DNA of 60,457 nucleotides, taken from Acidobacteriaceae bacterium (lineage in GTDB: Bacteria; Acidobacteriota; Terriglobia; Bryobacterales; Bryobacteraceae). Numbering within the stretch: position 1 is the stretch's first letter; every line of letters starts with the position of its first letter. The translations under genes were made by a program, and so were the position numbers. The notes beneath the pieces are model-generated. The model was given only the letters and a program-made list of their open reading frames with translations. It was not told where the DNA came from and ran no database searches. This document shows positions 16,892-34,860 of the stretch, piece after piece. Where the stretch lies: positions 1 through 60,457 of the forward strand of contig JAFATG010000323.1 of the NCBI GenBank assembly GCA_019244055.1. The letters run 5' to 3'.

Positions 16892-18079
16892 TTAAGAAAT
16901 TTGTGACTGCCGAAACCGGCGTAACAGAACAGGTTCGGATGGCGCGAAGGTGCGCAACACCAGGCAGGTGATATCGTCGTGCTGGCGCGCGGACCCTACA
17001 AAGGCGTCTACAGAGGCCATAAGCCATCCGAGCGCCTGGGAAGCAGTTCGTCCGAGAAGACCATGGACGATTCCGAGCATACGAGCTTCGCCGTATTCTT
17101 CTTCGCGTTCGTTCTCTGCTTCGACCACTCCATCCGTAAAGATGAGCAAGAAATCGCCAGGGGTCAGGGTTGTGTTGCAGCATTCATAGTGAGCGGCCGC
17201 GCTGATGCCGAGGGGCAAGCCTCCCTTTTCCAGGCGCTCGATACTTCCCGAAGCCCGTCTCAGCACAGGCCAGTTGTGCCCAGCGTTGACAAAGGTCAGG
17301 CACTGAGTGGAGATCTCCAATTCCGCAAGGAAAGCGGTAATAAAGCGCCGGCCTCCCGCGTTCTGAGCACAGACGTATTGATTGAGGCGATTCACCAACT
17401 CAGGCAGGGAGAGCGGCAGGGTTGCCAAAGTACGCAGACTCGCCTGCAGGGTAGCCATCAGGAGCGCTGCCGGAACGCTCTTGCCAGCGACATCGCCGAC
17501 GACAATGAGCAGACGCTTGTCTTGCGCGACAGGCAAGTCCCGCTCCGGATGCGGCACCATGCAGCGCAGAAAAGCGTCATAGTAATCGCCCGCCACGGTA
17601 TTGGCTGGACGGGTTGCAAACGCGATATCGATACCGGGAATGGATGGAGGGGCAGAGGGCATAAGCCAGCCTTGTATCTCGCGCGCAATTTGGAGATCGC
17701 GTTTCATGGTGACGCGGTCGGCGAGTTCGAGAGCCAGCAGGATGACCAACGCGATGCCGCCGAATAAGGCGAGATTCGGCATGGAGAATTCGGAATCGCG
17801 ATAGCGGATATCAAAACCCGGAAATACTAAGAGGATCAGGGCGATAAGAAGAAGTATTCGGCGGCCCGGGGAGAGTTTCATCATCATCGCCCAGAACAGC
17901 GCTTTAGCGACGCGGCGAGATCGCTTGCCGCGAGATTCCCCTTCGGCGCGGTTCCAATCGACCTCTTTCGAATAGAGTTCGTAGCTGGCTCGGGCTTCGG
18001 TGCGAAACTGCGCCCAAAGTTCCTGGACCTGAATGCCCTCGCTTACGCGTTGCCAAAAACTTCGCAGGGCGCGAACCAT
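16892..18079 (-). CDS. Membrane-attached SpoIIE/PP2C-type phosphatase
   Basis: 395 aa. A charged N-terminus is followed by two predicted transmembrane helices (ILLLIALILLVFPGF and LALFGGIALVILLALELADR), then a PP2C-like SpoIIE phosphatase domain in the cytosol. The domain shows QIAREIQGWLMPSAPP (the common linker to the catalytic core), VAGDYYDAF (metal-binding Asp), VVGDVAGKSVPAALLMA, FVNAGHNWP, LIFTDGVVEAEN and RQHDDITCLVLR, the metal-ligand Asp pairs of this family. Such proteins usually dephosphorylate anti-anti-sigma factors in partner-switching circuits. No STAS-domain or HATPase partner is in the window. It is divergent from cytochrome P460 with only 36 nt between start codons. Confidence 0.9.
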   Translation of the reverse strand: MVRALRSFWQRVSEGIQVQELWAQFRTEARASYELYSKEVDWNRAEGESRGKRSRRVAKALFWAMMMKLSPGRRILLLIALILLVFPGFDIRYRDSEFSMPNLALFGGIALVILLALELADRVTMKRDLQIAREIQGWLMPSAPPSIPGIDIAFATRPANTVAGDYYDAFLRCMVPHPERDLPVAQDKRLLIVVGDVAGKSVPAALLMATLQASLRTLATLPLSLPELVNRLNQYVCAQNAGGRRFITAFLAELEISTQCLTFVNAGHNWPVLRRASGSIERLEKGGLPLGISAAAHYECCNTTLTPGDFLLIFTDGVVEAENEREEEYGEARMLGIVHGLLGRTASQALGWLMASVDAFVGSARQHDDITCLVLRTFAPSEPVLLRRFRQSQIS

Positions 18080-18115
18080 GTTTTAGGCTCAAGTATACGA
18101 AGGGTCTTTTCGAAA

Positions 18116-18709
18116 ATGAGAGCGCGTGATCTGTCATTCGTTTTGATTGCTGTTTCATTTACCGCTGCATTGGCCCTGGTTGCGAGGTCGCAGCCCGAGT
18201 CACAGGTGGCAGTGGACGACGGGCCTCGTTTCACGCGAGGGAACCAGATGGTGCGGCCGGATAATTACCGTGAATGGATCTATCTCAGCTCCGGTTTGGG
18301 CATGTCCTATACGCCGGGGACGGCTGATGCCGATCCTAGCTTCGATAACGTGTTTGTGAATCCAAGTGCATACAAGTCATTTGTTGCAACCGGAAGGTGG
18401 CCGGAGAAGACCATCTTTGCGCTCGAGATCCGGCAATCCGTCAGTAAAGGATCCATTAATCGAAAGGGTCACTATCAGGGCGAGTTCGCAGCACTCGAAG
18501 TTCATGTCAAAGATGAGAGGCATTTCCCAGGGAAGTGGGCGTTCTACGGCTTCAATGGCCCGGAAAAGACCGCGAGCATGATTCCGACCAGCGCAGATTG
18601 CTATTCGTGTCACGAGCAGCACGGAGCGGTCGACACTGTCTTCGTGCAGTTTTATCCCACCTTACTCGACGTTGCCAAGCGACAAGGGACGATCCGGACG
18701 CAGTACTGA
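18116..18709 (+). CDS. Cytochrome P460 family protein, exported
   Basis: 197 aa from ATG 18116; an earlier in-frame ATG at 18050 would place 22 extra residues before the signal peptide and overlap the divergent gene. The signal peptide is LSFVLIAVSFTAALALVARS. The single c-type haem motif is CYSCH (Cys162, Cys165, His166), close to the C-terminus as in cytochrome P460. The N-terminal half includes NYREWIYLSSGLGMSYTP, a family hallmark. Characterised P460 enzymes oxidise hydroxylamine, but the many homologues in heterotrophs have unknown substrates, and I infer only a periplasmic haem redox protein. MATE follows after 4 nt. Confidence 0.85.
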   Translation: MRARDLSFVLIAVSFTAALALVARSQPESQVAVDDGPRFTRGNQMVRPDNYREWIYLSSGLGMSYTPGTADADPSFDNVFVNPSAYKSFVATGRWPEKTIFALEIRQSVSKGSINRKGHYQGEFAALEVHVKDERHFPGKWAFYGFNGPEKTASMIPTSADCYSCHEQHGAVDTVFVQFYPTLLDVAKRQGTIRTQY

Positions 18710-18713
18710 ACCG

Positions 18714-20084
18714 ATGAGGATCGCGGAACTCTGGCCCGATGTTCGCCGTGTGATTGTACTCGCGATTCCGGTCGCGTTAGCCGAGCTGGGGTGGATGGCA
18801 ATGACGGTGGTGGACACCATCATGATCAGCCCGTTGGGGCCGGTAGCGATCGGCGCCATCGGGATCGGCAACAGCGCTTTCTATTCGTTCGCAATTTTTG
18901 GAATGGGCCTGCTGCTCGGCTTGGATACGCTCGTCTCCCAGGCATTCGGGGCGGGTGATCGTGGAGATTGTCACCATTCACTTTCACAGGGGCTGCATCT
19001 AGCGGTGTTTTTCACCATTCCGTTAATGCTTCTGTTTGCATTCATGCCACCCGTTTTCTACGCGCTCGGTATCAACGCAGAAGTGAGCGGGAGGGCAGGT
19101 TCGTTTCTGATTACCCTGAGCTTCAGCACGCTACCGCTGCTGCTATATGGCGCGCTGCGCCGTTACCTCCAAGGCATAGGTCACGTGCGGCCGGTTATGT
19201 TTACGCTGATCAGCGCGAACCTTATCAACTGGTTCTTCAATTGGTTGCTCATACTGGGGCACTGGGGATTCCCAGCTCTGGGGGTGGTGGGATCGGCGCT
19301 TTCTACCTGCTTGGCGCGAGTTTACATGGCCCTCCTGCTGGCTGGTTTCATTTGGTGGTTTGAGCGAAAAACAACGGCCGGCTTCCGGGCAATTTTTCGA
19401 CCCCCAGACTGGACCCGGATTCACCGACTCATCCGGATCGGATTGCCCGCCGCGACTCAAATCCTGTTGGAAATCGGCGCTTTCGGAGCTGCCGCAATCC
19501 TGGCTGGACGACTAAGTCCGATTTCGCTCGCATCCCACCAAATAGCGCTAAACTGCGCGGCAGTGACTTTCATGGTCCCACTTGGGGTGTCATCTGCTGC
19601 GGCAGTGGCGGTGGGGCAGGCGATCGGGCGCGGTGAACCCGCACTCGCCAGACGCAATGGATTCATCGCGATCGGCCTCGCCTGCGCTTTTATGACGTGC
19701 GCGGCGCTGGCGTTCCTTGTGATCCCAGGACCAATTCTGCGTGTTTACACAAACAACGCAGGAATTCTAAGCATCGGTACCGGCTTGCTTGCCATCGCGG
19801 CACTTTTCCAATTGTTCGACGGTATTCAGACGGTTGCTACGGGCGCACTTCGCGGGCTAGGCAACACGCGCACGGCGATGCTGGTGAATCTCGGGGGCTA
19901 TTGGCTTTTGGGCTTACCGATTGGATATATGCTCTGCTTCCGCCAGGGATTCGGGATCTATGGCCTGTGGTGGGGCTTAACGCTTGCGCTAATCGCGATT
20001 GCCCTCATTCTGCTTTACAGTTGGCAAGGGCAGTCGCGCTGTCCCCAGCCGGTATGTGAGGCCGCCCGAGTGCATAGCGCCTAA
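18714..20084 (+). CDS. MATE family efflux transporter
   Basis: 456 aa from ATG 18714, four bases after the P460 stop; the upstream in-frame start at 18672 would overlap P460. About twelve hydrophobic helices form two MATE halves (for example VIVLAIPVALAELGWMAMTV, GLLLGLDTLVSQAFGAGD and ALRGLGNTRTAMLVNLGGYW). The paired LDTLVSQAFGAG and AVAVGQAIGRGEP segments are typical. It should export cationic or organic compounds using a Na+ or H+ gradient. Likely co-transcribed with P460 and the selenoprotein peroxiredoxin, which hints at a shared response to toxic or oxidising compounds (inference). Confidence 0.92.
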   Translation: MRIAELWPDVRRVIVLAIPVALAELGWMAMTVVDTIMISPLGPVAIGAIGIGNSAFYSFAIFGMGLLLGLDTLVSQAFGAGDRGDCHHSLSQGLHLAVFFTIPLMLLFAFMPPVFYALGINAEVSGRAGSFLITLSFSTLPLLLYGALRRYLQGIGHVRPVMFTLISANLINWFFNWLLILGHWGFPALGVVGSALSTCLARVYMALLLAGFIWWFERKTTAGFRAIFRPPDWTRIHRLIRIGLPAATQILLEIGAFGAAAILAGRLSPISLASHQIALNCAAVTFMVPLGVSSAAAVAVGQAIGRGEPALARRNGFIAIGLACAFMTCAALAFLVIPGPILRVYTNNAGILSIGTGLLAIAALFQLFDGIQTVATGALRGLGNTRTAMLVNLGGYWLLGLPIGYMLCFRQGFGIYGLWWGLTLALIAIALILLYSWQGQSRCPQPVCEAARVHSA

Positions 20085-20111
20085 ATCATGCTAAGGTCGG
20101 TTAAGGTACCT

Positions 20112-20657
20112 ATGCACATCACCAGGCGGCTCGCGATTGCGAGCACGATAGGGATCAGTTTGCTAGCGCAGGCACCGCCTTCAAGCACGCTCACGGTGGG
20201 CGACAAGGCGCCCGATTTCACGCTCCCGTCCACCGACGGCAAAGCTGTTCACATCGCCGACTATATTGGCAAAAGCACCGTCGTGCTGGCGTTCTTTCCG
20301 GCTGCGTTCACAGGCGGTTGAACGGCGGAGATGAAAGCGTACCAGGCTGGTATGCAAAAGTTCCAAGAGACCGGAGCGAAGGTGTTCGCGATTAGCACCG
20401 ATAACGGGCCATCGCAGAAAGCGTTTGCCGAACAGCTCGGCCTCTCGTTTCCCTTACTGAGCGATTTTGTCGATAGGAAGGTATCGCAAGAATATGGTGT
20501 GTACATTCCGAGATATGCAATTGCCGGACGAGTCACATTTGTGATTGATAGCAACGGCAAGATCGACACAATCGAATCGGGCGGCGATGCGATTAAAATG
20601 TTGCACACACCGGACGCTTGTAGCCGCCTTGCTCACAAGAAGGCGAGCGGAGGATAA
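20112..20657 (+). CDS. Selenocysteine-containing peroxiredoxin (in-frame TGA at 20319-20321)
   Basis: AhpC/TSA-family peroxiredoxin, 181 aa if the TGA is read as selenocysteine (residue 70). The start is ATG 20112, with TAAGGT just before it and a signal peptide (RRLAIASTIGISLLAQA); ATG 20088 has no ribosome site. Upstream of the TGA: VGDKAPDFTLPSTDGK and FFPAAFTGG. Downstream in the same frame: TAEMKAYQ, VFAISTDNGPSQKAFAEQ and VTFVIDSNGKI. The TGA therefore sits exactly where the peroxidatic Cys of the F-T-x-x-C motif belongs, and both halves are well conserved. A SECIS-like hairpin starts at the TGA, and selA is at 33532. Cys170 is the only Cys and could be a resolving residue. It would reduce peroxides outside the cytosol. 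Without recoding it would be a 69-residue truncated protein. Confidence 0.88.
20320..20363 (+). promoter_or_regulatory. Predicted bacterial SECIS element
   Basis: The hairpin lies directly at and after the in-frame TGA. Its upper stem pairs GCGTACC (20337-20343) with GGTATGC (20349-20355), including one G-U pair, around the 5-nt loop AGGCT. Its lower stem pairs GAAC (20320-20323, within and after the TGA) with GTTC (20360-20363). The loop begins 22 nt after the TGA and has G at its second position, which fits known bacterial SECIS elements bound by SelB. The position within the coding region is as in formate dehydrogenase genes. Confidence 0.75.
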
Positions 20658-30652: not shown

Positions 30653-33532
30653 ATGCCGGAAATCTCAAGCATATCGCTCTGTGAAGAGGTCGCGTCCGCC
30701 GAGGTTGTCGCTGCGGCACGACCCGTGCTGGCGATTCATGGCGCGCGCGTTCACAACCTCAAGAACATCACGGTTGAAATTCCGCATGACCGATTGACAG
30801 TTGTGACGGGAGTTTCCGGTTCCGGCAAATCGTCGCTGGTGTTTGACACGATTTATGCCGAAGGCCAGCGCCGATACGTGGAATCGCTCTCGGCCTATGC
30901 GCGCCAATTTCTGGAGCGCATGGAAAAGCCCGATGTGGATGAGATTCTGGGCATCGCCCCTCCGATCGCGATACGCCAGAAGAATCAGACGCGGAATCCG
31001 CGCTCGACGGTCGCGACGGCCACGGAGCTATACGATTTTATGCGGCTCCTGTGGGCGCGGGCTGGGCAGACGTATTGTCCGAACGACGGCACTCGTATTC
31101 AGAGAGATACGGTGGATCAGGTGGGGGAGGCAATGCTGAAGGAGGAGGAAGGCTCCCGCTGGTATGCCCTGTTTCCCGTGAGAGTGGAAGCAAGCAATGC
31201 GACCGCGCTTCGGGACCGGCTCTTCGATCTGCGAAAGAAAGGGTTCAACCGGTTGTTTCAAAGCGGCCGCATTTGCGAGTTCTCCACACCCGAATCTCTG
31301 CTCGAAATCGATTTCGCGAAGCCGGTTTATGTACTTGCCGATCGGATTGTGATCCGTTCCGATTCCCATCAGAGGATCGTCGATACTGTCGAAATTTGCT
31401 ATCGCGAGACCGGCGAAGTTTTCTTTGAACAAGCTGGCGTCGCCGAACCGATTACACGTCATTTCAGCGAAAAGTTCGCTTGCAAAGCGTGCGGCCTCAC
31501 TGCTGTGGTGGCGGAGCCGACGCTCTTCAGCTTCAATAGTCCGATCGGAGCGTGCCCTGTTTGCCAAGGCTTCGGCAACACGATTGATTACGACTTCGAT
31601 TTGATTATTCCCGACCCGACGCTCTCACTCGAGGAGGGCGCGGTTGATCCATGGACCAAACCGCAATATGGCTGGTATTACGACGAAATCTTCAAGCCGA
31701 AGACTCGCGGCAAAGTTCGGTTGAACGTGACGTATTCGGATCTCAAAACGCAGGAGAAAGAGATCATCCGCACTCACATCCAGCGGTTCTTCGCCGAGGT
31801 CGAGAAGAAGAAGTACAAAGTGCATGTCCGGGTATTCATGAGCCGATATCGCGCGTATACGGAATGCCCCGCATGCCGTGGCGCCCGGCTGCGGCCTGAA
31901 GCGCTTTGGATAAGAATAGGCGATTGCAATATCGCCCAAGTCTCGGCAATGAATATCGCGCGGGCGCAGGCGTTTTTCAATACGCTGAAGCTCAGTCCAG
32001 AGGAATCGGAGATTGCAGGGCGGGTCCTTGAAGAGATCCGCCAGCGTTGCAAGTTTCTGAACGACGTGGGTTTGGAATACCTCACGCTTAATCGCCTCTC
32101 GGCTACGCTTTCGGGCGGAGAAGCGCAGCGCATCCAGCTCGCCACCTGTTTGGGCTCGCGCCTGGTTGGCGCGACGTACGTTCTGGATGAACCTTCTATT
32201 GGACTTCACAGCCGCGATACGGCTCGCCTGATCCGAATTCTGAAGGATTTGCGCGAACTGGGGAACACGATCATCGTCGTGGAGCACGATCCCGAGATCA
32301 TGTCGGAAGCCGACCACATTATCGATCTCGGACCCGGAGCTGGCGAAAATGGCGGGCGGGTTATTTTTTCGGGCAGCTACGGTCAACTTTTGGAAGGGCG
32401 ATCTCAATCGCTTACCGGACGATATCTGCGAGGCGAGGCGGCGATCAGGCGAGCCGTCGAGCGCCGGAAAGTTAATCCCAAACGCATCATCCGCGTTATT
32501 GGCGCGCGCGCGAATAACTTGAAGAACCTGGACGTCGAAATTCCGCTTGGCATGATGGTGGCCGTCACGGGCGTCTCGGGTTCCGGTAAATCGAGCCTGG
32601 TGCACGAGGTCATTTACCGAGCGCTGGATCTAGAAATCAATAGGGAACGCCAAGCCTCAACGAAAGATGATGCGGCCAGCGTGGAGTCAAGCGTTCGCAA
32701 GCTTCCGCTCAAGCGCGTAGAACGCGGCGATCTTCTCACTAGCGTTGTTATGGTCGATCAGTCTCCAATCGGCCGCACCCCGCGTTCGAATCCTGTCACT
32801 TACGTCAAGGCCTTCGATCTCATCCGCGATCTGTTTGCGTGCACTCCGGAAGCACAACGACGAGGATATACCGCCGGCCATTTTTCATTTAATGTTCCGG
32901 GTGGGCGCTGCGAGACGTGTCAGGGTGACGGTACGGTCACGGTCGAGATGCAATTTCTTGCCGACGTCGAGCTGGTATGCGAAGAGTGCAAAGGAACGCG
33001 ATATAAGCAGAGCGTCCTGGATATCCGATACAAAGGACTGAACATTCACCAAGTCCTGCAGCTCACGATCCGTGAGGCTCTCTCGTTTTTTGCAGACACG
33101 CCGCGTCTCGCCGCTCGAATGAAGGTGCTTCAGGATGTCGGGCTTGGTTACTTACGTCTCGGTCAATCTGCGACCACGCTCAGCGGAGGAGAAGCACAAC
33201 GTGTGAAGCTGGCCGCGCATTTGGCACAGGCAAGCTGCCAGGGGACTCTGTTCTTGTTCGATGAGCCCACGACCGGTTTACACTTCGAAGATATTTCGAA
33301 GCTGCTGCAATCTTTCGAGCGGCTTATTCAGAACGGTGGCAGCATTCTGGTGATCGAGCACAATCTGGATCTGATTCAGGCTGCCGACTGGATCATCGAC
33401 CTTGGGCCCGAGGGCGGGGAAGCGGGCGGCTCTATTGTGGCGCAAGGCACGCCGGAAATGGTGGCCGCGATTCCGGAGTCGTACACGGGCAAGTACCTGA
33501 AGCGGGTTTTGGCGCAGCGCGCGATCGCGTGA
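30653..33532 (+). CDS. uvrA: Excinuclease ABC subunit A
   Basis: Damage-recognition ATPase of nucleotide excision repair, 959 aa. First P-loop [20 protein letters not shown] followed by [15 protein letters not shown]. The first zinc finger is CKACG...CPVCQG and the second CETCQG...CEECKG. ABC signatures are [20 protein letters not shown] and [16 protein letters not shown], with a second P-loop [17 protein letters not shown]. About 20 residues of non-conserved N-terminus precede [15 protein letters not shown]. Its TGA overlaps the selA ATG (TGATG). Confidence 0.97.
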
Positions 33533-34860
33533 TGAAGCTTAATGAGATTCCCTCCGTCGACCAGGTCCTGCGGGGGCTAAAGCCGATCGACGGTCTCCCA
33601 CCCGAAGTAATCACGAATCAGATCCGCGTCGTGCTCGGCGAGTTGCGTGAGGCCTTAAAGCGGGGCCAACCGCCGGAGGAGGCCATCGGGCAGGCCGTTC
33701 TTGCACGGCTGAATGCTCTTGCACGACCTACCCTACGGCCGGTAATCAACGCGAGCGGAGTGATTCTGCACACCAATCTCGGCCGTGCCCCTCTTGCGGC
33801 GTTCGAGCCGCTAATGGGCTACTCAAATCTGGAATACGATCTCCTAAACGGCAAGCGCGGCAAGCGCGATTCGCACATCGCACCCTTGCTGGAACAGATT
33901 CTGGGAGTTCCGGGCATTGTAGTCAATAACAACGCCGCTGCTGTTTATCTTGTGCTTAACGAGGTGGCAGCCGGAGAAGAGGTCATCGTTTCGCGGGGAG
34001 AGCTGATCGAGATCGGCGACGGGTTTCGGATTCCAGAGATTATGGTCAGGTCCGGCGCGGTCTTGCGTGAAGTGGGCACCACCAACCGAACTCGCCTCGA
34101 AGACTACGAAGAGGCCATTAATGAACGTACTCGTCTAATTTTGCGCGTGCATCCATCGAATTTTCGCGTGAGCGGATTCACTAGCAGGCCAGAACTGAGA
34201 GAGCTCGCGACACTCGCCTTGGAGCACAAAATTCCTCTGTATGAGGATCTTGGGAGCGGGTGTCTCGTCGATCTGGCGAAGTACGGAATCCGGGAGCCGC
34301 TAGTAGCCGGCAGTCTCAAGTCCGGTGTCAATCTGGTTTCATTCAGTTGTGACAAGCTCCTCGGCGGTCCACAATCGGGCATTATCGCCGGCGATAAGCA
34401 ACTTGTCAGTCGCATTCGTCGCAATCCAATGTACCGCGCTTTCCGAGTGGACAAGCTCACGATTCAAGCGCTTCAAGTCACGTTGCACCACGTGCTGCGG
34501 CAGGAATGGCGCGCGATTCCAACTCTTCGAATGATTTTCCAAACTGCCGATGAAATTCGGCTTCGCGCCGAGCGGGTTGCGGATGCCTTGGCTCCCCTTG
34601 CCTGCCAAATTCGCACTGGGGAATCGGCGATTGGAGGCGGGTCTACTGCCGAACAGCCCGTGCCTACCTGGGTCATTGCAGTCTCCGTTCCGGATCCGGT
34701 GTCCTTTGAGCGGAAACTGCGCGAAGCGGCAATTCCCGTGATCGCCCGTATCAAAGATGATGAGGTCCTGCTCGACTTACGCACCGTACACGACGAAGAG
34801 GAACCGCTCCTCATAGCCGCTGTGCGGGCTGCAAATGAAGGCGCTCCCAGTCAGCCTTAA
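33532..34860 (+). CDS. selA: L-seryl-tRNA(Sec) selenium transferase
   Basis: Converts seryl-tRNA(Sec) to selenocysteinyl-tRNA(Sec) with selenophosphate; a PLP enzyme. 442 aa from ATG 33532, which overlaps the uvrA TGA; a GTG one codon earlier is less likely. Motifs: VILHTNLGRAPL, GYSNLEYDL, VVNNNAAAVYLVLNE, VIVSRGELIEIGDGFRIPE, EVGTTNRTRLEDY, and FSCDKLLGGPQSGIIAGD with PLP Lys275. The residue before DKLLGG is Cys where Gly is usual. Its presence means the host can decode UGA as selenocysteine, supporting the peroxiredoxin call at 20112. No selB, selC or selD is in the window. Ends 4 bp into the convergent pyrC. Confidence 0.93.
   Translation: MKLNEIPSVDQVLRGLKPIDGLPPEVITNQIRVVLGELREALKRGQPPEEAIGQAVLARLNALARPTLRPVINASGVILHTNLGRAPLAAFEPLMGYSNLEYDLLNGKRGKRDSHIAPLLEQILGVPGIVVNNNAAAVYLVLNEVAAGEEVIVSRGELIEIGDGFRIPEIMVRSGAVLREVGTTNRTRLEDYEEAINERTRLILRVHPSNFRVSGFTSRPELRELATLALEHKIPLYEDLGSGCLVDLAKYGIREPLVAGSLKSGVNLVSFSCDKLLGGPQSGIIAGDKQLVSRIRRNPMYRAFRVDKLTIQALQVTLHHVLRQEWRAIPTLRMIFQTADEIRLRAERVADALAPLACQIRTGESAIGGGSTAEQPVPTWVIAVSVPDPVSFERKLREAAIPVIARIKDDEVLLDLRTVHDEEEPLLIAAVRAANEGAPSQP

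Follow-up and report, generated by a model that had tools for sequence, protein, structure and literature searches.

The reading frame of a peroxiredoxin gene in an acidobacterial contig (JAFATG010000323.1; the whole 60,457-nucleotide stretch analysed is called the window) is interrupted by a single in-frame TGA between FFPAAFTGG and TAEMKAYQ, which raises the question of whether this codon marks a broken gene, an ordinary stop or the insertion of selenocysteine (Sec) and, if the last, what kind of enzyme is made. Read through from its ATG to its TAA, the frame encodes a 181-residue AhpC/TSA peroxiredoxin, residues 29-152 of which match PF00578 (1.4e-37, 128.8 bits, cut-off 26). Our best reading is an exported variant of the known selenoperoxiredoxin kind, marked out by its predicted export and a distal Cys, and we give roughly 0.85 to the joint claim that the product is a selenoprotein, is exported and has a peroxiredoxin core. 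Taken by itself, the selenoprotein part is, on sequence grounds, close to certain.

Table 1 Features of the peroxiredoxin locus and its surroundings (window positions)
Feature	Position	Strand	Evidence
AAGG upstream of ATG 20112, probable ribosome-binding site	20103..20106	+	read from the sequence
Selenoperoxiredoxin gene, 181 residues, TGA read as Sec, TAA stop, product probably exported	20112..20657	+	reading frame and PF00578
Probable signal peptide, about residues 1-22, twin-arginine-like ITRRLAI start	20112..20177	+	crude hydropathy, TRR pattern
TGA, Sec70, peroxidatic position	20319..20321	+	TGA in 108 of 114 loci and alignment with AhpE
SECIS-like hairpin GCGTACCA-GGC-TGGTATGC, within the coding sequence	20337..20355	+	folding, covariation, pairing counts
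Arg140, counterpart of the AhpE active-site Arg	20529..20531	+	alignment
TGT, Cys170, likely resolving residue	20619..20621	+	counterpart in 112 of 112 full-length loci
selA, L-seryl-tRNA(Sec) selenium transferase	33529..34860	+	PF03841, 4.5e-123

The catalytic codon among Acidobacteriota homologues

The original prediction placed the TGA exactly at the catalytic Cys of an FTxxC motif, and alignment agrees: residue 70 lines up, with no gap N-terminal of it, with the Cys of FTGIC in Mycobacterium tuberculosis AhpE (Rv2238c), which we take to be the peroxidatic Cys45. Translation likewise leaves residue 170 as the sole Cys, as had been claimed. Under translation table 11 the gene is listed as two open reading frames (20088-20321 and 20331-20657), just as foreseen for standard gene callers, and the window protein falls short of the curated cut-off of every one of the 15 NCBIfam models listed for it; many copies of the gene are therefore probably annotated as fragments.

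The codon at the catalytic position was read in 114 homologous loci of Acidobacteriota. Searching 60 related genomes at a threshold of 1e-30 gave 58 loci in 51 of them; a phylum sample of 396 genomes at the same threshold gave matches in 54, the genome of the window included, and contributed 54 loci besides its own; two more (L058 and L060) were added. Nothing at 1e-30 was found in the other 342 sampled genomes, so that the family, though it occurs widely, is by no means universal. One locus with 30% identity was left out as another peroxiredoxin (L062), as were five loci (L055, L056, L057, L059 and L061) regarded as copies of ones already read, since their contigs equal in length those of G014, G002, G016, G001 and G009, and two incomplete loci (L043 and L052) were counted for codon and hairpin and excluded for Cys170, leaving 112 full-length loci. 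The codon is TGA in 108 loci, TGC in five and TGT in one, with TAA, TAG or any other codon in none. Homologues had been expected to carry mostly Cys and sometimes TGA; both forms are indeed found, but the majority is TGA, 108 against six.

The Cys forms occur in six genomes (G006, G029, G030, G032, G043 and G052), two of which also carry a TGA paralogue (L117 in G043 and L122 in G029), and they offer a natural comparison for the benefit of selenium to the enzyme. Four changes between Sec and Cys are needed on a tree of 61 loci, at least three of them forced by well-supported branches, and five on the 114-locus tree. Because the 114 loci contain paralogue pairs (in G029, G040, G041, G043, G044, G045, G056 and G216) and close relatives, locus counts do not equal independent events.

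The sequence beyond the TGA was said to be conserved in a way that a pseudogene would not predict. Comparing the window gene with seven relatives, we found pN of 0.04-0.17 against pS of 0.68-0.78 after the TGA (seven comparisons), indicating purifying selection on the codons 3' of it. In a single draft assembly of 372 contigs, a lone in-frame stop would look the same if it came from a pseudogene, a sequencing error or a genuine stop leaving only a 69-residue product, and this is where such readings would draw their appeal; retention of TGA in 108 of the 114 loci, with TAA and TAG in none, together with the selection downstream, already contradicts them, and we rejected pseudogene and sequencing error, giving this whole group of readings the least credence of any considered here. 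TGA is also an ordinary stop in this genome, since 8 of the 27 window genes inspected end in it, and on this use and the codon survey we rejected TGA as a reassigned sense codon.

Selenocysteine machinery and the hairpin downstream of the TGA

The original prediction hinged on selB, selC and selD being present in the genome (G000; 6.2 Mb, 372 contigs, 96.7% complete), and all three are, with selA in addition inside the window. SelA, SelB and SelD score 412, 346 and 354 bits, and a tRNA-Sec of 71.5 bits with an ARAGORN anticodon of TCA lies on another contig; ARAGORN run on the window alone found no tRNA. Among the 60 relatives, SelB exceeds its cut-off in 50. It does so in four of the genomes with a Cys form (G006, G030, G043 and G029) and fails to do so in the other two, G032 (62% complete) and G052. 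Six TGA-form genomes also have no SelB over the cut-off; two of these (G028 and G038) hold SelB-matching pieces at 158-185 bits, and in the other four (G010, G019, G022 and G034) assembly gaps may explain it, since the drafts are 80-94% complete.

A 19-nt hairpin with the loop GGC starts 15 nt downstream of the TGA. Folding of 60 nt gives a z of -1.96, with 9 of 200 shuffles equally good. Using 27 Sec loci, we obtained a covariation score of 0.159 for the named stem against a shuffled mean of 0.077, a value that none of 500 shuffles attained, and slid controls gave 0.001-0.036; two measures were weaker, since 37 of 500 shuffles attained the count of three pairs with both partners changed and 268 of 500 that of five further pair types. 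Across the 108 Sec loci, the stem codon pairs are TAC..GGT in 48, TAT..GAT in 42, TTC..GGA in five and others in 13. Specifically, the synonymous third base of the Tyr codon tracks the Gly/Asp change three codons on, a compensatory pattern. The inner pairs 23-33, 24-32 and 25-31 are all formed in 98 of the 108 Sec loci versus one of the six Cys loci, counts that are inflated by the relatedness of the loci; on five phylogenetically independent pairs, a sign test for pair 24-32 was not significant (median p 0.25), the partners going together about three times, oppositely never and without difference about twice. Rfam found no RNA family in the window at gathering thresholds. On its covariation and its loss in Cys forms, the predicted hairpin is a putative SECIS element.

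Ten Sec loci lack the full set of inner pairs. One (L089) has the same hairpin with a mismatch. The other nine (L095, L146, L147, L150 and L152-L156) fold differently, with no common hairpin and with other, longer hairpins directly after the catalytic TGA; these folds, seen without a control, may be an alternative form of the SECIS in this family.

Insertion of Cys or another residue at the UGA by an unusual tRNA has a precedent of sorts in selC-type tRNA-Cys and in allo-tRNAs; passages of PMC7609411 mention both and place allo-tRNAs in Acidobacteria too. The genome of the window, however, encodes SelA, SelB, SelD and a tRNA-Sec with the matching anticodon, and the hairpin goes with the TGA form and is mostly missing from Cys forms, so that we regard such decoding as very improbable, scarcely ahead of a broken gene. 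Sec at the peroxidatic position, as originally proposed, is thus what the sel genes, the TGA count, the covarying hairpin and the downstream selection together support.

Predicted export, active site and proposed mechanism

The protein was also claimed to carry a signal peptide. Its N-terminus has basic residues and a hydrophobic stretch ending in LLAQA and passed a crude hydropathy test, from which export is predicted. The same test, which ignores start codons, finds a hydrophobic segment ahead of the domain in 110 of the 114 loci. An [ST]RR pattern occurs in the N-terminal region of 23 of the 114, some of them misplaced, and since ITRRLAI of the window protein is among the matches, Tat export is possible. 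Judged from sequence, the peroxiredoxin is probably exported.

The window protein has PxxxTxxU and a distant Arg (P63, T67, U70 and R140), which presumably fill the peroxiredoxin active-site roles. Family-wide, Thr is replaced by Ser in three of the 114 loci, and the distant Arg is found by pattern in 109 of the 112 full-length loci and by eye in the remaining three. The Pro is absent from 49 of the 114, so substrate handling may vary. In 41 of the 114 loci it is Val (FYVLAFTGGU, e.g. L075 and L109), which is unusual for a peroxiredoxin active site.

The distal Cys is more constant. A Cys lies 97-105 residues past the catalytic residue in all 112 full-length loci, whether of the Sec or the Cys form, giving each the conserved second Cys of the 2-Cys type, and it is the only Cys after the catalytic residue in 109 of them (L127-L129 have one more). 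This invariance argues that Cys170 is not incidental and is likely the resolving Cys, and we consider it probable that Cys170 resolves oxidised Sec70. An AlphaFold model built from seven rows had a mean pLDDT of 61.6, with residues 65-70 under 50, and this poor model matched AhpE and other peroxiredoxins at an rmsd of 6.0-8.2 among the 50 PDB matches listed; we therefore took no 70-170 geometry from it.

We propose that the hairpin just past the UGA would direct SelB to place Sec at residue 70 during translation, and that the protein would then be exported to the periplasm. There, Sec70 in its PxxxTxxU site with Arg140 would reduce hydroperoxides, and Cys170 of the same or another subunit would resolve the resulting selenenic acid by forming a selenenylsulfide. 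This bond might in turn be reduced by thiol relays of the periplasm that possibly draw electrons from a DsbD-type protein; a 654-residue frame with a DsbD_TM match in the same genome could supply them.

Among solved structures, AhpE is the best match (2.9e-24), with the FFPxAFTGxC motif and the Arg aligned; it differs in having Cys where the window protein has Sec. AhpE is cytosolic and a one-Cys peroxiredoxin, the latter also by its PDB title, and this kinship is what would favour a one-Sec, AhpE-like selenoprotein in which Sec70 is reduced directly by a small thiol or by a partner of the redoxin kind, and Cys170 does something else. The AhpE match spans residues 24-153 of the window protein and does not reach the C-terminal segment with Cys170. 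Against the one-Sec scheme stands the distal Cys, kept at its distance in every full-length locus of both forms, and we hold that scheme to be unlikely. Resolution by Cys170 instead recalls human PRDX5, an atypical 2-Cys enzyme with a peroxidatic-to-resolving spacing of about 104 residues, compared with 100 in the window protein, and without Sec; PRDX5 is not among the 60 PDB chains listed as matches of the window protein.

Relation to known selenoproteins and gene neighbourhood

The first Prx (TxxU) selenoprotein to be demonstrated was reportedly PrxU of Eubacterium acidaminophilum. That selenoperoxiredoxins were already known, as the original prediction noted, is evident from the tables of PMC13188914 and PMC9312934, where Prx (TxxU) is an established bacterial selenoprotein family; the window protein shares with it the AhpC/TSA domain and a peroxidatic Sec within TxxU. 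It scores 64.8 bits against the NCBIfam PrxU model NF040737, short of the cut-off of 270. A probable signal peptide and the invariant distal Cys may set it apart from known Sec peroxiredoxins. The tables of the same two papers also give Prx-like thiol:disulfide oxidoreductases (UxxC), likewise with Sec on a PF00578 fold; unlike these, the window protein has no Cys three residues after Sec.

The tally in PMC5029168 is 91 Prx selenoproteins from 78 organisms. For Acidobacteria, the counts in PMC1794560 (four selenoproteins of three families) and in PMC12013277 (three genes for known selenoproteins in Occallatibacter riparius, an acidobacterium) come without names there, so an acidobacterial Sec peroxiredoxin may already be among those counted. 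A search of largely open-access full texts listed no title on this acidobacterial selenoperoxiredoxin lineage.

More tentatively, and with the odds somewhat against it, the loci may represent an old, widespread acidobacterial lineage of extracytoplasmic selenoperoxiredoxins with a two-residue Sec/distal-Cys mechanism. Retention of the Sec machinery in many acidobacterial genomes would then be due in large part to this lineage, and the supply of selenium would limit how well these bacteria defend their envelope against peroxides. The predicted exported enzyme by itself would extend Sec-based peroxide chemistry beyond the cytosol in this phylum. Acidobacteriota are common in soil.

The gene was described as lying behind a cytochrome P460 and a MATE exporter. 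Both are present upstream (P460 at 18050-18709 and MatE at 18672-20084), and a LuxR-type response regulator follows downstream. MATE recurs near three of 66 other loci, in two genomes (L027 and L059, both in G001, and L030 in G010), and P460 and the response regulator near none of the 66, with flanks mostly of 1.5 kb (3 kb for L055-L062), so short that P460 would often lie beyond reach of the search. The poorly conserved neighbourhood gives the P460/MATE context little functional weight, and we rejected a functional linkage, MATE being found again within these short flanks in two genomes only and P460 in none. With the start codons as mechanically listed, the frames of P460 and MatE share 38 bases, probably because of a misassigned start or else because the two genes are coupled.

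Another likely selenoprotein of the same genome is a membrane-anchored redoxin with the motif GYW-TGA-PFC (P0002; L065:1426-2202, minus strand, contig C109). At 1e-25 it has matches in three of 30 genomes, its own included, with one TGA inside each (the position was read in its own genome only), and its WUPFC motif fits the UxxC oxidoreductase type better than the window peroxiredoxin does. A third AhpC/TSA match of 34.2 bits, also with one TGA inside, lies on contig C254 (13366-13647, minus strand).
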